DNA of 24,773 nucleotides from Candidatus Alcyoniella australis (GTDB lineage Bacteria; Lernaellota; Lernaellaia; JAVCCG01; Alcyoniellaceae). Positions 540 through 24,669 of this stretch are shown piece after piece (positions within the stretch are counted from its first letter, which is position 1; each line of letters begins with the position of its first letter). The stretch lies in assembly GCA_030765605.1 (NCBI GenBank), contig JAVCCG010000051.1, positions 1-24,773 of the forward strand. Reading direction: 5' to 3'. Made by a program: the position numbers and the translations under genes. The notes beneath the pieces were generated by a model that saw only the letters and a program-made list of their open reading frames with translations, was not told the origin of the DNA and ran no database searches.

Positions 540-1076
540 TTAATCTCCAGATGTAAAAACCCAAACCAACAGTCGCGCGAGGAATCCCAGCGCGCCGAGC
601 CCCAACAGCAATTGCGCGACGAACGAGGCCCAGCCGCTGGCTGCCTCGGGAGTATAGGCGGCGATCAACCAGAACAGCAGCGCAAAGCCCCAGGGCAGAC
701 ACAGCCGCACCGCGCCGTCGACCAGGTCGGGATTGGCCATCTCTTTATTCCAGCGCGCCAGTGCTCCGCCGAACACCGCGTAGCCCAGGAAGGAACCGGC
801 CAGTGTGCCGATGATGAAGCGGTTGGCGACGTTGTCTTCCAAGGGCAGCCTGTCGAGCATTGAGAGCAACACCATGCAGGCCACGAACAGCGCCAGGTTG
901 ATCAGCGTGCCTTGCCAGCGGTAGCGCCAGGCGCGGCTGGTGTAATACAGGTGCACCAGCACCGAGCCGATCAGTCCGGCGTGGAAGCCCGCGCTACGTG
1001 CGCAGACCTGCCAGCCGGTCATGCTCATCGAGTCGTTGGCCGGGCAGAGCATCGGACTCAGCAGATCGGGGATCAT
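540..1076 (-). CDS. DUF2085-like polytopic membrane protein
   Basis: This 178-residue protein has about five hydrophobic segments (roughly 24-42, 57-76, 86-106, 121-141 and 149-174). Near the N-terminus are LCP at 9-11 and VCARSAGFHAGL at 24-35. This matches the DUF2085 signature, in which a Cys, a spacer and then vCaRctGiylG lead into a membrane helix. The family is uncharacterised, so no function is assigned. The second Cys of the usual CxRC motif is replaced by Ser (CARS), and the usual CH is CP, so it is a divergent member. The ATG overlaps the TGA of the upstream penicillin-binding protein gene as ATGA, which fixes this start and implies translational coupling. The family call is from memory of the motif and is moderately secure; that it is a membrane protein is very secure. 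Confidence 0.62.
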   Translation of the reverse strand: MIPDLLSPMLCPANDSMSMTGWQVCARSAGFHAGLIGSVLVHLYYTSRAWRYRWQGTLINLALFVACMVLLSMLDRLPLEDNVANRFIIGTLAGSFLGYAVFGGALARWNKEMANPDLVDGAVRLCLPWGFALLFWLIAAYTPEAASGWASFVAQLLLGLGALGFLARLLVWVFTSGD

Positions 1077-3826
1077 TTTTCGTCTTCCTGTGATAGGGGT
1101 TCGAACTCGAGCAGGTCCAGCAGCGGCGGAGCCTGTTCCTCCACCGGCTGCAGCTCGGGCTGTGGCAGCTCGGCGTCGATCATCGGCTGCTGGGGCAGCG
1201 GCAGCTCCTGTTCCATGTCCAAGCGGCCGAACTCCTCCAGCCGCGGAGTGGAGATGATCGGCGCGACGCCGGTGGGCGCGGTGCCGACCTTGAACACTTC
1301 GAGGATCGTCTCTTGGGTGGTCTCGCCGGGGAGGTAGCCGTTGTCCTTGTCGATGGTGACGAAGGCCAGGCCCGAGGGGCGGGTGAATTGGCGATTGGGC
1401 TTCTGGGCCAGGGCGGCGCGCATGAAGTCGATCCAGATCGGCAGCGCAGCGCGGCTGCCGCCCTCGCCGTGTCCGAGGCTGATCCGGCCGTCGTCGAACC
1501 CGACCCAGACTCCGGCCAGCAAGTCCGGCGAGTAGCCGATGAACCAGGCGTCGCGGTAATCGTTGGTCGTGCCGGTCTTGCCCGCCACCACCCTTCCCAA
1601 CGAGGCGGCGCGTCCGGCCGTGCCCCACTGGCAGACGCTCTGCATCATGCTCGTGACCTGATAGGCGGTCTGCGGGCTGTTGACGCGCACGAAGCTGACG
1701 TTGCCGTCGGGACGCGCCTCGGGCGGGATCTCGTCGCGCAGCGGCTGCTGGCCGTCGGGCAGGGCGAAGGTCCACTGCTTGGCCGGCTCGAGGCGGAACT
1801 CCTGGGCGCGGTTGTCGGTGATGTGAAAATAGGCGGTCGAGGCCTGGCGCGGTTCGCTGAGGATCGGCGGGCTCGGCGCGAGCTGCGTGTTGAGCACGCT
1901 GCTCTCCAGCAGTTGGCCCTCGCGGGTGGTGATCCGCCGGATGGTGATCGGCTGAGCGTGCTTGCCCATCGCGGCCAGACAGGCGTAGGCGTTGATCAGT
2001 TCGATCGGCGAGATCACGTGCGAGCCGATGGCCATCGACAGGTCGGGATTGCGGCCCAGGGTCGTCAGACCCATGCGCCGGGCGTACTCCATTACGTACT
2101 CGGGCCCGACCTGCCACATCAGGCGGATCGTCACCAGGTTGATCGAACGCGCCAGGGCGTAGCGCAACGACACGAAGCCGAAGTATTCGCCGGTGTAGTT
2201 GCGTGGCCGCCAGCCGCGAACGAAGGTCAGCGGGCCGTCGAAGGCGATCGTGCCCGGTGTGTAGCCCGCGTCGAGGGCCGCGGCGTAGACCAGCGGTTTG
2301 AACGCCGAGCCGGGCTGCCGCCGCGCCTGGGTTACGCGGTTGAACTGGCTGCTGCGGAACTCGCGGCCGCCGAGCATCACCAGCACCTCGCGGTTGTGCG
2401 GGTTCATCGCCAGCAGCAGTCCCTGGACCTCGGGCCGCTGTTCGAGGCTGACCTTGAAGCCCTCGGCCGCGGAGTCGTCCTTGATCTTGACCTCGATCAG
2501 GTCGTTGACGGCGAGGAGCTGGCCGGGCTTGACCAGCCGTTCACGGCGTCGGCGGTTGCCCTGGCGCAGGTCGCGCGCCCAGGCCATGTCGCGCAGCTCC
2601 AGTTGCGCCTCGACCCCGCCCAGGTCGAGGGTCGTCAGCTTTTGCCGATCGTCGATGCGTGTAACCAGCGCCTCAAGGATCGCGCCGCGTTCCGGCGGGG
2701 TCTGGGACAGGCGTTGGCGCGCCTTGTCCAGCCAGGCCTGAGCCTGCTGCTGATCGTCGAGGTGCTTAAGCGGCCCGGTCCAACCCTGGCGCTTGTCCAG
2801 CTGGCGTAATCCCTGGTCCAGGGCGGTCTCGGCCGCGGCGGTCTGCTCGGGGTCGACAGTGGTGTAGATCTCGAGCCCCTGCTTGAACACCACCTCCGGC
2901 CCGTAAGTGCGCATCAGGTAGCGCCGCACGTACTCGACGAAGTACGGGCAGCGCGACGGCGGCTCCTCGTCCTCGTCGCGCAGCCGCAGCGGCTGATCCA
3001 GCGCCGCCTGGTACTGGGCGTCGGTGATGAATCCGACCTCGCGCAAGCGGCGCAGCACGTAATGCTGACGCCCCTTGGCCGCCGCGGGATGGCGCAGAGG
3101 CGAGTAGGCGTTGGGCGCCTTGGGCAGCCCGGCGAGCACCGAGCACTCGGCCAGGTCCAGGTCCCAGACGTCTTTGCCGAAGTAGGTCTGGGCCGCGGCC
3201 TGCACGCCGTAGGCGCCGTGGCCGAAGTAGATCTCGTTGATGTAGAGGTAGAGGATCTCCTGCTTGCTGAAGCGGCGTTCGATGCGCGTGGCGAGGATCG
3301 CCTCTTTATATTTGCGGGTGATCGAGCGTTCGGGGGTCAGCAGCAGGCTCTTGGTCACCTGCTGGGTGATCGTGCTTCCGCCCTGAACCACGTCCAGGGC
3401 CAGGATGTTTTTGAGCAGCGCGCGCAGGATCGAGATGTAATCCAGCCCCTTGTGGCTGTAGAAGTTCTCGTCCTCCGAGGCGATAAACGCCTGGATCAAC
3501 CGGTTGGGTACGCGCTGGATGGGCACCAGCTCGCGCCGGATGTTCTCGTGACGGAAGGTCGCCAGCTGCCGCCCATTGCGGTCGTAGACCCGGGCCACGG
3601 TATAGGGCTGATAGTCGGCCAGCGAGTCTATGCGCGGAATATCGGGAAAAAAGACGAACGGTAAATCAGACTCGATCAGCGCGTAGACTGCAATAAAACC
3701 ACTGAGGATCACGATCGCCGCGCTGCACAAAAGATAGGCCAATACACCGCTGAGCCAACGGCGGCGCAACCCCGGAGAGTCGACCTTGATCAGGTAGACT
3801 TGCTTGACCGATTTGCGAATTACCAT
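1073..3826 (-). CDS. mrcA: Penicillin-binding protein 1A (bifunctional peptidoglycan glycosyltransferase/transpeptidase)
   Basis: This 917-residue class A PBP polymerises lipid II and cross-links the peptide stems in the periplasm, anchored by one helix at about 27-51. The GT51 domain carries SEDENFYSHKGLD at 117-129 (catalytic Glu118), GGSTITQQ at 149-156, and the RKYKEAILATRIE and NEIYFGHGAYG motifs near 171-207. An OB-like insertion lies at about 385-450, as in E. coli PBP1A. The transpeptidase has SxxK at 507-510 (GSAFKP), SxN at 561-563 and KTGT at 750-753, so both activities look intact. The last 60 residues form a Pro/Glu/Gln-rich tail. The ATG at 3826 was chosen because a short basic cytoplasmic leader then precedes the membrane helix; longer upstream frames are antisense to the ClC gene. 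No good Shine-Dalgarno is seen. The gene is coupled to the downstream DUF2085-like gene. Confidence 0.95.
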   Translation of the reverse strand: MVIRKSVKQVYLIKVDSPGLRRRWLSGVLAYLLCSAAIVILSGFIAVYALIESDLPFVFFPDIPRIDSLADYQPYTVARVYDRNGRQLATFRHENIRRELVPIQRVPNRLIQAFIASEDENFYSHKGLDYISILRALLKNILALDVVQGGSTITQQVTKSLLLTPERSITRKYKEAILATRIERRFSKQEILYLYINEIYFGHGAYGVQAAAQTYFGKDVWDLDLAECSVLAGLPKAPNAYSPLRHPAAAKGRQHYVLRRLREVGFITDAQYQAALDQPLRLRDEDEEPPSRCPYFVEYVRRYLMRTYGPEVVFKQGLEIYTTVDPEQTAAAETALDQGLRQLDKRQGWTGPLKHLDDQQQAQAWLDKARQRLSQTPPERGAILEALVTRIDDRQKLTTLDLGGVEAQLELRDMAWARDLRQGNRRRRERLVKPGQLLAVNDLIEVKIKDDSAAEGFKVSLEQRPEVQGLLLAMNPHNREVLVMLGGREFRSSQFNRVTQARRQPGSAFKPLVYAAALDAGYTPGTIAFDGPLTFVRGWRPRNYTGEYFGFVSLRYALARSINLVTIRLMWQVGPEYVMEYARRMGLTTLGRNPDLSMAIGSHVISPIELINAYACLAAMGKHAQPITIRRITTREGQLLESSVLNTQLAPSPPILSEPRQASTAYFHITDNRAQEFRLEPAKQWTFALPDGQQPLRDEIPPEARPDGNVSFVRVNSPQTAYQVTSMMQSVCQWGTAGRAASLGRVVAGKTGTTNDYRDAWFIGYSPDLLAGVWVGFDDGRISLGHGEGGSRAALPIWIDFMRAALAQKPNRQFTRPSGLAFVTIDKDNGYLPGETTQETILEVFKVGTAPTGVAPIISTPRLEEFGRLDMEQELPLPQQPMIDAELPQPELQPVEEQAPPLLDLLEFEPLSQEDEK

Positions 3827-3890
3827 CGGCGAATACGGTATGATAATCAGTGCCGGGGGACAAGCCTCGTGAATAACCCAGGCTAGGGTA

Positions 3891-3919
3891 TTGACGCCCT
3901 GGCGTTGATTCCATAGCCT
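3891..3919 (+). promoter_or_regulatory. Candidate sigma70-type promoter for the ClC gene
   Basis: TTGACG at 3891-3896 and TAGCCT at 3914-3919 are separated by 17 nt. The -10 box keeps the three most conserved positions (T, A and final T). Transcription would begin near 3926, giving a leader of about 39 nt that contains the whole palindrome at 3941-3964. This also disfavours the TTG at 3932 as a start. The call rests on consensus matching only. Confidence 0.4.
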
Positions 3920-3940
3920 CCGTGCCGACCCTTGGTCAGG

Positions 3941-3964
3941 ATTGTCCAAGGGGACTTGGATAAT
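3941..3964 (+). promoter_or_regulatory. 24-nt palindrome/hairpin directly abutting the ClC start codon
   Basis: ATTGTCCAAG (3941-3950) and CTTGGATAAT (3955-3964) are inverted repeats matching at 9 of 10 positions; the tenth is a G-U pair in RNA. The loop is GGGA, which fits the GNRA tetraloop rule. The ATG begins at the next base, 3965. The purine run AAGGGGA (3948-3954), the only Shine-Dalgarno-like element, lies in the loop and the closing stem, so folding would mask it. It could be a translational control hairpin or, as DNA, an operator. Confidence 0.6.
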
Positions 3965-6130
3965 ATGACAAAACACAGTCGATCTACGCTGAAGAAGCCG
4001 GGCAGGGGCGCGCAAGCGGCATTGCTGCGCGTACTCTACGGCGCGATGGATCGGCTGCGGCTGAGCGAGACAGCGTTCATTGTGGGCATGGCAGCCTTCG
4101 TCGGCCTGGCCGCGGGCTACGGCGGCGTGGCCTTCCGCGAGATGCTCGAGCTGGCGCGGCGCTTTTTCTGCGACGCCGCCTGGTACCTCAAGTACGTCAG
4201 CGTGGGCTTTGACTCGCCCGAGGCGGCCCTGGCCGTGCGCGCCCAGATCGAGTCGGTCCACATGCTCGGCGGGGCCAACCCGCTGGGCTTCCTCTCCTGG
4301 CCGTTCCTGATCGGGGTCTGCGCTTTCGGCGGGCTGCTCGTGGCGCCGATGGTCTTTTTCCTGGCGCGCGAGGCCAAGGGGCACGGCGTGCCCGAGGTGA
4401 TGGACGCCATCGCCCGCCGCGGCGGACTGATCCGCGTGCGGGTGGTATTAGTTAAAGCCGTGGCCTCGGTGCTCTCGATCGCCACCGGCGCCTCGGTGGG
4501 CTCCGAGGGCCCGATCGTACAGATCGGCTCGGCCATCGGCTCGAGCGTGGGGCAGTTCTTCCGCGTGGCGCGCGAACGAATGACGATCCTCGTGGGCTGC
4601 GGCGCGGCCGGCGGCATTGCGGTGATCTTTAACGCGCCGATCGCCGGGATCATGTTCGCCCTGGAGGTGATCCTCGGCGACTTCACCGTGGGCACGCTCT
4701 CGGCCGTGGTGATCAGCGCGGTGATGGCCACGGTTGTGCGCCACGTGTATTACGCGGACGAGCCGGTATTTCACAACATGACCTACGAGTACGTCAGCAT
4801 CTACGAGGTCGGCACCTACATGCTGCTGGGGCTGATCGCCGGGCTGATCGCGCTGCTCTACGTGCGCATGGTCTACAAGCTCGAGGACGCGTTCGACGAT
4901 TCGCGCATCCCGCGGCTGCTGCGTCCGGCCCTGGGAGGGGCGTTGGTCGGCGTGATCGCCGTATTCTTTCCCCAGGTGCTTGGCGTGGGCTACGAGTCGA
5001 TCGACCTGGCGCTCACCGCCCAACTGGGGCTCGGTGCGCTGGTCGCCCTGGCTTTGCTCAAGCTGGCGGCCACCGCGCTGTCCATCGGTTCGGGCGCCAG
5101 CGGCGGGATCTTCGCTCCGTCGCTGTTTATCGGGGCGATGACCGGCGGCGCCGTGGGCATGGTGGTTCATACGCTGTTTCCCGAGGTCACCGCGCCCACC
5201 GGGGCCTACGCGCTGGTGGGCATGGCCGCGGTGTTCGCCGCCGCGACCCACGCGCCGATCACCGCGATTTTGATCCTCTTCGAGATGACCCTGGACTACA
5301 AAGTAATCCTGCCGGTGATGCTGGCGGTGATCATGGCGACGATGGTCAAACGCGCGCTGATGACCGAGTCGATCTACACGCTCAAGCTCGCGCGCAAGGG
5401 CGTACGGATCCACGCCGGCCGCGAGGAGACGATCATGAAATCGCTGTGCGTGCGCGAGGTGATGCGCGCGGACGCGGTGAAAATCAGGCACGACATGCCG
5501 TTCAACGAAGTGGTCGAGATCGTGCTCTCCAGCCCCGAGACCATGTTCTTCGTTGTCGATTCCGAGGGGATGCTCAAGGGCGAGATCTCGTTGCATACGG
5601 TCAAGGACATCCTGCAGGAGCAGGGGCTGGACCTGCTGGTGTTGGCCGACGACGTAATGACCCCGGCGCAGACCTTTGTCACGCCGGACACCACCCTGGC
5701 CGAGACCATGCGGCGCTTCTCGGCGCGCCACACCGACGTGCTGCCGGTGGTCGAGTCAAAACAGAACCCGCGCTTCGTCGGCGTGCTCAGCCGCGCCGTG
5801 ATCATCGACGCCTACAACCGCGAGATCCTGCGCCAGAGCGCCCTGGGAATCCGCTATTTGCGCGGCGGCAGCGACGGCCGGACCGTCGAGGCGGTTGAGC
5901 TGCCCGTGGAGTTCATCACCCGCGAGATCTCGATCCCCCAGGGCTTTGTGGGCATGACGTTGCAGCAACTGGACCTGCGCACGCGCCACGGCGTAACCGT
6001 GCTCGCGGTGCGCCATCCCGGCGGCGGTCCCCAGGGCGACGAGATGCCCGATCCGCAGAAGCCGCTGACAGCGGGCGATCGGATGGTCGTGGTCGGCCGC
6101 GTGGACGATCTCAACCGCCTCGAAGATTAG
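3965..6130 (+). CDS. ClC family chloride channel/transporter with CBS pair and C-terminal RCK_C domain
   Basis: This 721-residue inner-membrane protein has the ClC signature motifs: KGHGVPEV at 138-145 (the GSGIP region, with His in the Ser position), GSEGPIVQ at 179-186 with gating Glu181, GIFAPSLF at 381-388 and the pore Tyr471. The position equivalent to the internal proton glutamate of E. coli ClC (E203) is Val235 (FALEV), as in chloride channels, so proton-coupled exchange of the E. coli type is doubtful. Two CBS domains follow (about 491-545 and 562-615), then an RCK_C/TrkA-C-like domain (about 645-720, ending GDRMVVVGRVDDLNRLED). These cytoplasmic domains usually bind nucleotides or other small ligands. 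The ATG at 3965 is preferred over an in-frame TTG at 3932 because AAGGGGA lies 10 nt upstream and the protein then begins with a basic leader. The gene diverges from mrcA. Confidence 0.93.
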   Translation: MTKHSRSTLKKPGRGAQAALLRVLYGAMDRLRLSETAFIVGMAAFVGLAAGYGGVAFREMLELARRFFCDAAWYLKYVSVGFDSPEAALAVRAQIESVHMLGGANPLGFLSWPFLIGVCAFGGLLVAPMVFFLAREAKGHGVPEVMDAIARRGGLIRVRVVLVKAVASVLSIATGASVGSEGPIVQIGSAIGSSVGQFFRVARERMTILVGCGAAGGIAVIFNAPIAGIMFALEVILGDFTVGTLSAVVISAVMATVVRHVYYADEPVFHNMTYEYVSIYEVGTYMLLGLIAGLIALLYVRMVYKLEDAFDDSRIPRLLRPALGGALVGVIAVFFPQVLGVGYESIDLALTAQLGLGALVALALLKLAATALSIGSGASGGIFAPSLFIGAMTGGAVGMVVHTLFPEVTAPTGAYALVGMAAVFAAATHAPITAILILFEMTLDYKVILPVMLAVIMATMVKRALMTESIYTLKLARKGVRIHAGREETIMKSLCVREVMRADAVKIRHDMPFNEVVEIVLSSPETMFFVVDSEGMLKGEISLHTVKDILQEQGLDLLVLADDVMTPAQTFVTPDTTLAETMRRFSARHTDVLPVVESKQNPRFVGVLSRAVIIDAYNREILRQSALGIRYLRGGSDGRTVEAVELPVEFITREISIPQGFVGMTLQQLDLRTRHGVTVLAVRHPGGGPQGDEMPDPQKPLTAGDRMVVVGRVDDLNRLED

Positions 6131-22386: not shown

Positions 22387-23423
22387 CGGATCGATTCGAC
22401 GATCGTGCCGCCGCCGAGCACGATCTCGCCGCTGGGATCGTAGAACACCGCGGCCTGGCCCGGGGCCACGCCCTGGGTCGGCTCGTCAAAGCGCACCTCG
22501 CAGCCGCGCTCGTCAGGGAAGATGCGCGCCGCAGTCCCGTTGTGGCGCGAGCGCAGCTTGACCAGGGCCTGCGCGCCGGGTTCGACCTCGCGCAGCATTC
22601 GCGGTTGATCCGTGCGCAGACCGCGGCAGTCGAGTTCCTCGCGCGGCCCGACAAGCACTTCGGCGCTCTGGGGCCGGATCTGGATTACGTACAGCGGTTG
22701 GTCGGCGGCCACGCCGATGCCGCGGCGTTGACCCACGGTGAACAGGTGTACGCCGCGATGTTCGCCCAGCACCGTGCCCTGCGAATTTTTAATCAGACCC
22801 GGTCGCGCTTCTTCAGCGTTGAGCACCTGCCGATGATACGGATCGCCTTGGGCAAAGCAGATCTCCTGGCTCTCGGGCCGCGCCAAACGATCCACGCCGA
22901 ATTGCGCGGCAAGGGCGCGTACCTCGACCTTGCTCATCGCGCCCAACGGCAGCCGCAGCCTGGGCAGCCAGTCCGGGTCGACGGCGTAGAGGAAGTACGA
23001 TTGGTCCTTGTCCGGGTCCACTGCGCGCAGCAGCCGTCCGGCGCTGTCGATCCGCGCGTAGTGCCCGGTGGCGATCAAATTAATGCCCAGCTCGTCCGCG
23101 CGCTGGATCAGCGCCGCGAATTTGACTCGTGGATTGCACCACACGCAGGGGTTGGGCGTACGGCCCGCGATGTAGGCCTCGGCGAATGGCATACGCACCT
23201 GCTCGCGAAACAGCGAGCGCGCATCGTAGGTCTCGTGGGCCATGCCCAGCAGCCGCGCCTGCTCGGCCGCAGCCCGGGCGCACTGCTCGGCACCCGGATC
23301 GAACAGCAACAGCGTAAGTCCGACGACCTCGATTCCCTGGGATGCGAGCAATGCCGCGGCGACCGCGGAGTCAACACCGCCGCTCATTGCGATCAGGGCT
23401 TTGGTCAAGCCCGGATTATTCAT
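22383..23423 (-). CDS. mnmA: tRNA-specific 2-thiouridylase MnmA
   Basis: This 346-residue cytoplasmic enzyme inserts sulfur at C2 of the wobble uridine (s2U34) of Lys, Glu and Gln tRNAs by adenylation and persulfide transfer. The PP-loop ATP motif SGGVDS is at 14-19. The two catalytic cysteines are in place: C96 (PCVWCNPRVKF) and C189 (ESQEICFAQGD). GHYARI (120-125), the DQSYFLY segment (140-146) and HLFTVGQRRGIGV match the family, and the C-terminal beta-barrel is present, so the protein looks complete. The ATG at 23423 (MNNPG) is chosen over an upstream start seven codons earlier because it lies 10 residues before the first strand. Only a weak GAAG precedes it. The stop overlaps the mtaB start, so the two are probably translated together. 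Confidence 0.95.
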   Translation of the reverse strand: MNNPGLTKALIAMSGGVDSAVAAALLASQGIEVVGLTLLLFDPGAEQCARAAAEQARLLGMAHETYDARSLFREQVRMPFAEAYIAGRTPNPCVWCNPRVKFAALIQRADELGINLIATGHYARIDSAGRLLRAVDPDKDQSYFLYAVDPDWLPRLRLPLGAMSKVEVRALAAQFGVDRLARPESQEICFAQGDPYHRQVLNAEEARPGLIKNSQGTVLGEHRGVHLFTVGQRRGIGVAADQPLYVIQIRPQSAEVLVGPREELDCRGLRTDQPRMLREVEPGAQALVKLRSRHNGTAARIFPDERGCEVRFDEPTQGVAPGQAAVFYDPSGEIVLGGGTIVESIR

Positions 23424-23437
23424 AAGGCTTCTACTGC

Positions 23438-23557
23438 GGCGCACAATTCATCCGCAACTACTGCGTCATCCGGGACGATCCGTCCTCGACGTACCACAGC
23501 GGGTACGCCTGCGGATGATCGCCCCGTCTTCCTTGTATTTACGGCGCTTTGCACGCC
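23438..23557. repeat. 120-bp imperfect palindromic intergenic element
   Basis: Four nested pairs of inverted arms share one centre near 23498: CGTACC/GGTACG (23490-23495 and 23502-23507, perfect); the wider 24-nt arms 23472-23495 and 23502-23525 (16 identities plus two G-U pairs); CCGCAACTAC with GTATTTACGG (23452-23461 and 23535-23544, 8/10); and GGCGCACAA with TTGCACGCC (23438-23446 and 23549-23557, 7/9). It fills most of the 148-bp gap between mnmA and the HD-GYP gene. No convincing reading frame or T-tract is present. It looks like a palindromic interspersed repeat or a structured RNA; copy number cannot be seen here. Confidence 0.55.
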
Positions 23558-23571
23558 TCGCTGACGAACCC

Positions 23572-24669
23572 TCATGGATAATCCGGGCTAGCGCTCTGCG
23601 CCTCCTGCTCGCGCTTGAGCACGCGCACCAGCGCGTCGACCACCTCGGGGATGAAGTGTTTGCCGCGCATGCTCAACAGGTATTGAGCCGCGCTTTCGGG
23701 CGTCATCGGATCGTGGTAGGGCCGGTAGGTGGTCAGCGCGTCGAACACGTCGGCCACGGAGAGCACGCCGGTGAGCAGGCCGATCTCGTCTCCGCGCTTT
23801 CCCGCGGGGTAGCCCGAGCCGTCGAGCCGCTCGTGGTGATCGCAGATCAGTTCGACCTCGTGCGAGAGGAACTTCAGCGGGCGGAGAATTTCGGCGCCCA
23901 CGCTCGAATGGCGCTTCATTACCAGCCACTCGTCGTCGGCGAGCTTGCCCGGCTTGTCGATGGTCGGCAGGTCGACCACCAGCTTGCCGATGTCGTGCAG
24001 CCGCGCTGCGCGCCGCAGAGTCTTGATCTCATCGCTGGAGAGGTTGAGTTCCTTGCCGATCAATATGCAGTAGTTGGTCACGCGTTCTGTGTGGCCGGCC
24101 GTGTAGTTGTGCTTGGCCTCCATCACCTTGGTCATGCTGCCGATGATTTCGACGTAGATCTCCTCCATCTGGCGCTGGGTTTCGATCAGCCGATCGTTCT
24201 TATCCTCGAGCTCGAGAATTTTGACCTCGAGTCGCTCGACGAGCTTACGCGAGTACTCCTTGAGGTAGCGGCTCTCCTGCTTGGCCTCGACTGTCTCGCG
24301 TTTGCCGCCGAGGTACGACTCGACTTGGGTGATGAAGTTCTCCGGGTCGATCGGCTTTTGCAGGTAGCCGTCGCAGCCGGCGATCAGGCTTTTCTCGCGG
24401 TCGCCGCGCATCACGTTGGCGGTCACGGCCACGATCGGGATGTGCTTGGTCGTCTCGGTGTTCTTAAGCCGGGTCGTCGCCTCGTAGCCGTTCATCCCCG
24501 GGATGTTGATGTCCATCAAAATCAGGTCGGGCAGCTCGGCCTGGGCGGCCTTGATGCCGCTGAGGCCGTCGATGGCATCGAGCATCTCGTAGCCCGAGGA
24601 CTCCAGTAGTCGGCGCACGAGCATTCGATTGGAGAGGTTGTCTTCTATGTATAAAATCCTGGTGCTCAA
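23572..24669 (-). CDS. Response regulator with REC and HD-GYP domains (probable cyclic-di-GMP phosphodiesterase)
   Basis: This 365-residue cytoplasmic regulator has a receiver domain at about 4-122 with acidic E9/D10, phosphoacceptor Asp53 (LMDINIPG) and Lys105 (QKPID). A coiled linker follows at about 125-180. The HD-GYP domain (about 185-355) has the HD pair in RLHDIGK (H225, D226), [11 protein letters not shown] near 253-262 and [11 protein letters not shown] (278-288), the full signature. HD-GYP domains hydrolyse cyclic-di-GMP to pGpG or GMP, so phosphorylation of the REC domain likely tunes second-messenger level and thus motility or biofilm. The start is TTG, supported by AGGGGAA about 7 nt upstream, and it overlaps the kinase stop as TTGA. 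The partner is therefore almost certainly the adjacent histidine kinase. Confidence 0.93.

Follow-up and report, generated by a model that had tools for sequence, protein, structure and literature searches.

A Predicted Start-Occluding Hairpin in the Short Leader of a ClC Gene from Candidatus Alcyoniella australis

Described Leader Hairpins and RNA Elements of CLC Genes

In the coat gene of phage MS2, the stability of a hairpin at the translation start sets the level of translation (PMC9894550; de Smit and van Duin), a precedent for the hairpin preceding the ClC gene described here. Both genes have a small hairpin that holds a partial Shine-Dalgarno (SD) sequence and the start region, but the MS2 hairpin is a phage RNA that has been tested experimentally, whereas the ClC hairpin is predicted only; the ClC AUG, moreover, lies at the foot of its hairpin and the MS2 AUG within the core stem. 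RNA thermometers of the FourU and ROSE kinds share with the ClC leader a hairpin at the ribosome-binding site, and CsrA-binding leader hairpins share with it a loop that contains GGA and overlaps the SD.

With respect to CLC genes, about 30% of the CLC-F subfamily is controlled by fluoride riboswitches (PMC11139923). The statement in the original prediction that no element of this kind has been described for ClC genes therefore needs a qualifier, although the kind of element does differ: the fluoride riboswitch (crcB motif) that precedes CLC-F genes is likewise an RNA structure in a CLC-family leader, whereas the ClC hairpin is a single simple hairpin without an Rfam match.

The ClC Gene and Its Start Codon

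The window analyzed here, a 24,773-nt stretch of Candidatus Alcyoniella australis (contig JAVCCG010000051.1), contains the ClC gene and a divergent neighbor:

1073–3826, minus strand: class A penicillin-binding protein (PBP; Transgly, PCB_OB, and Transpeptidase domains, from a domain search), divergent from ClC; its start near 3826 is judged from the sequence
3965–6130, plus strand: ClC gene, 721 amino acids (Voltage_CLC, two CBS, and TrkA_C domains, from a domain search)

ATG 3965 is a credible start for ClC, because the N-terminus of the class relative L003 is similar in length (30 residues up to an aligned Ser, compared with 34 in the window ClC read from ATG 3965) and because ATG 4046 is almost devoid of an SD. 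The latter codon also fits the N-termini of the relatives less well and was rejected, as was TTG 4022, the SD of which is weaker than that of ATG 3965.

Inspection of three class relatives (L002, L003, and L004) did not reveal the divergent PBP–ClC arrangement, which was rejected as a conserved unit; a divergent DciA-like ORF, a trehalose phosphatase gene, and an ORF without a Pfam match, respectively, lie 5′ of their ClC genes. In one class relative (G005), the ClC homologue appears as two matches in separate frames (G005:C22:337851-339624; L077 and L124), perhaps owing to a frameshift or reflecting a pseudogene.

Predicted Promoter and Leader

Two features lie over the region immediately upstream of the leader:

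3880–3919, no strand assigned: imperfect palindrome with 19-nt arms (15/19 complementary) and a 2-nt gap, spanning the promoter (repeat search)
3891–3919, plus strand: predicted promoter TTGACG-N17-TAGCCT, with transcript start at approximately 3926–3928 (motif enrichment)

A search for TTGAC-N17..19-TANNNT within 150 nt 5′ of 758 predicted starts, the choice of which is noisy, found a TTGAC-N18-TANNNT-type motif at 29 of them, compared with 1.7 in shuffled sequences and 3 for the reversed motif. Owing to this enrichment over both controls, the motif appears to be a genuine promoter type in this organism. The ClC copy begins 74 nt before ATG 3965 and predicts an mRNA starting about 38 nt 5′ of the ATG, with the whole of the hairpin described below contained in its leader. 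A transcript starting downstream of the left arm, recognized at the outset as fatal to an mRNA hairpin, is thus not what the promoter predicts, and this placement of the start upstream of the left arm supports a hairpin over the SD and start region of the mRNA. The palindrome covers both the −35 and −10 elements of the predicted promoter, and an equally good one is present in only 5 of the 758 upstream regions; it is a candidate operator or a product of chance.

Two Mutually Exclusive Hairpins

The features in and around the predicted leader, all on the plus strand, are as follows:

3929–3952, plus strand: hairpin B, CCCUUGGUCA/UGUCCAAGGG, −12.6 kcal/mol, pairing SD bases and excluding hairpin A (repeat search, folding)
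3935–3969, plus strand: extended hairpin A, −16.2 kcal/mol, with outer GUCA/UGAC pairs that include part of the AUG (folding)
3941–3964, plus strand: hairpin A, a 10-bp stem including one G-U pair, with a GGGA loop, adjoining the ATG (sequence, repeat search, folding)
3947–3954, plus strand: SD-like sequence CAAGGGGA, about 10 nt 5′ of the ATG (anti-SD match)

Hairpin A consists of the arms ATTGTCCAAG (3941–3950) and CTTGGATAAT (3955–3964), as delimited by the repeat search, joined by the GGGA loop, which fits the GNRA consensus, and is followed directly by ATG 3965–3967. The geometry originally described holds in every respect: the position before the ClC start, nine Watson-Crick pairs plus one G-U pair (G3944-U3961), the loop, and the ATG on the next base. 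Folded alone, the hairpin has a free energy of −11.6 kcal/mol (z = −5.0), equaled by none of 200 shuffled sequences. The strongest anti-SD match 5′ of ATG 3965 (CAAGGGGA, −7.6 kcal/mol) does lie, as had been noted, in the loop and upper stem, so that by prediction the ClC mRNA carries a stable stem over its SD and start. One GGA (3952–3954) falls within the loop; others are at 3939–3941 and 3958–3960.

In the folding model, hairpin A is 94–98% formed at 37 °C in leaders beginning at 3854, 3891, or 3920–3928, and remains paired from 10 °C to 60–70 °C, with a mean pairing of 0.76–0.97 across 50 to 70 °C for three leader lengths. Hairpin B begins 1–3 nt from the predicted transcript start and has the strand 3943–3952 in common with hairpin A. 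Nascent RNA reaching 3953 is predicted to fold as hairpin B, which is replaced by hairpin A once 3964 has been made; at equilibrium at 37 °C, the model leaves only 2–5% as hairpin B.

Expectation by Chance and Rank in the Genome

The background frequency of comparable stems (10 bp, loop of 3–8 nt, at most one G-U pair) was determined from sampled stretches of this genome totaling 1.0 Mb. Counted by their end positions, such stems number 272 among 2.0 million strand positions and 114 among the 208,527 that are intergenic, and the intergenic rate gives a chance of about 5e-4 (0.05%) per start that a stem abuts it. With approximately 3,300 genes per genome, a figure extrapolated from 763 long ORFs in 1.0 Mb, about two start-abutting hairpins are expected per genome by chance, which calls for caution. 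In the sample, only two cases adjoining a candidate ATG or GTG were found among the 763 ORFs (3,144 candidate starts), namely ClC ATG 3965 and a GTG candidate in L160. An abutting hairpin is therefore rare for one named gene, but not for a reader free to pick any gene.

Ranked among the 758 noisily chosen starts, the predicted structure at the ClC start falls in the lowest 6% for the interval −30..+3 and at an ordinary 31st percentile for −35..+20. Among the 29 promoter-bearing starts, that of ClC is the most stable (−12.7 kcal/mol, −30..+3). This first rank is the strongest sign that hairpin A is unusual.

Comparison with Relatives and Databases

A start could be assigned in 101 ClC relatives, three of them from the same class, by an automatic procedure that used the strength of the SD and the length of the N-terminus. 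A stem comparable to hairpin A abuts none of these starts. The longest abutting stems in this set are of 8 bp (L014, L018, and L070) and unrelated in sequence; within the class, L003 and L004 have no abutting stem of at least 5 bp, and L002 has one of 6 bp. Conservation of the arms, on which the original prediction had made itself depend, is thus lacking at class distance, the closest genomes compared being of the same class only. Rfam covariance models gave no match, either at the gathering threshold or at E values up to 10, and a fluoride or other Rfam riboswitch was rejected on that basis.

Probable Function of the Hairpin

Hairpin A is probably an ordinary start-blocking leader hairpin that would hold ClC translation at a low, constant rate. 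The short mRNA leader would consist mostly of this stable hairpin, with the SD run in its loop and upper stem, its base touching the start codon, and the extended form partly pairing that codon. If the fold forms in cells as modeled, a ribosome would have to open hairpin A to initiate, so that the hairpin most likely keeps translation low and constant, presumably with no signal to relieve it. Since the structure in −35..+20 is ordinary, the lowering may be slight. The hairpin is apparently lineage-specific and may stem from chance rather than from selection as a regulator. A regulator may also have been selected for, as the first rank among the 29 starts with this promoter could indicate, and hairpin B and the palindrome that spans the promoter may point to genuine regulation. 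If translation is regulated through it, the leader would count as a very small control element for a chloride/proton transporter; on the present evidence, it adds one case, from an uncultured bacterium, to the start-occluding hairpins.

A translational switch, the first of the functions originally suggested, finds no support: pairing persists in the model, the hairpin is absent from ClC relatives, and Rfam offers no match. In its most developed form, a factor, a ligand, or the pace of transcription would pick between the exclusive hairpins B and A and thereby control ClC translation. Both hairpins exist and overlap, and the early start of hairpin B and its predicted displacement by hairpin A speak for such a mechanism, yet hairpin A dominates at equilibrium, the element is not conserved, and either fold blocks the SD or start region, leaving no clear ON state. 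With access to the ribosome-binding site restricted in either fold, A and B do not make an evident ON/OFF pair, and we regard this mechanism as unlikely. It is less probable still that the 38-nt leader, alternating between B and A, senses, for example, an ion or pH to control ClC translation and represents a new, lineage-restricted class of small regulatory RNA.

A DNA operator is similarly doubtful. Here, the dyad TTRTCCAAG-N4-CTTGGAYAA, near-perfect and spanning roughly +14 to +38 from the predicted transcript start, would bind a dimeric repressor just 3′ of that start. However, apart from one unconvincing site, the 4.3-Mb assembly contains no other copy of this dyad at 3 mismatches, and TCCAAG-N2-6-CTTGGA is unique in the genome, which weakens the case for the operator of a regulon; the dimeric operator of the original prediction is accordingly left without a second copy to suggest it. 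The palindrome at 3880–3919 is, furthermore, the better operator candidate.

A fourU- or ROSE-type RNA thermometer is highly improbable, even though the hairpin covers the ribosome-binding site. The SD lies in the GNRA loop and upper stem, neither opposite a U run nor in an imperfect stem, and the stem is free of mismatches and bulges. Little melting is predicted below 60 °C, and because predicted pairing persists to 60–70 °C, beyond the physiological range, the thermometer-like element first proposed is not borne out by the model.

Repression of the CsrA type through the GGA in the loop overlapping the SD, with further GGA motifs nearby, has equally little to commend it, since csrA (PF02599) was not found in the genome, which is 98% complete. 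In this the genome differs from the six other genomes of its class, all six of which encode CsrA, whereas none was detected here.

An Interspersed Element near the ClC Gene

A MITE-like interspersed element of about 184 bp occupies positions 23407–23590 of the window and has the inverted ends TAGCCCGGATTATTCATGAGG. These ends have 92 matches in the genome at ≤1 mismatch, compared with 0 in the control, and several form inverted pairs 167–168 apart. A solo end lies at 3862–3886, between the PBP and ClC genes; near hairpin A, only this segment resembles an end of the element. Hairpin A itself lies outside any repeat, and a repeat origin for it was rejected. The genome has no convincing second copy of the hairpin or its dyad. 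Some solo ends stand at promoter spacing from TTGACG (TTGACG-N17-CAGGCT; e.g., L129:8339, L157:8824, and L158:6437 on the minus strand), as if these ends carried or had become promoters.
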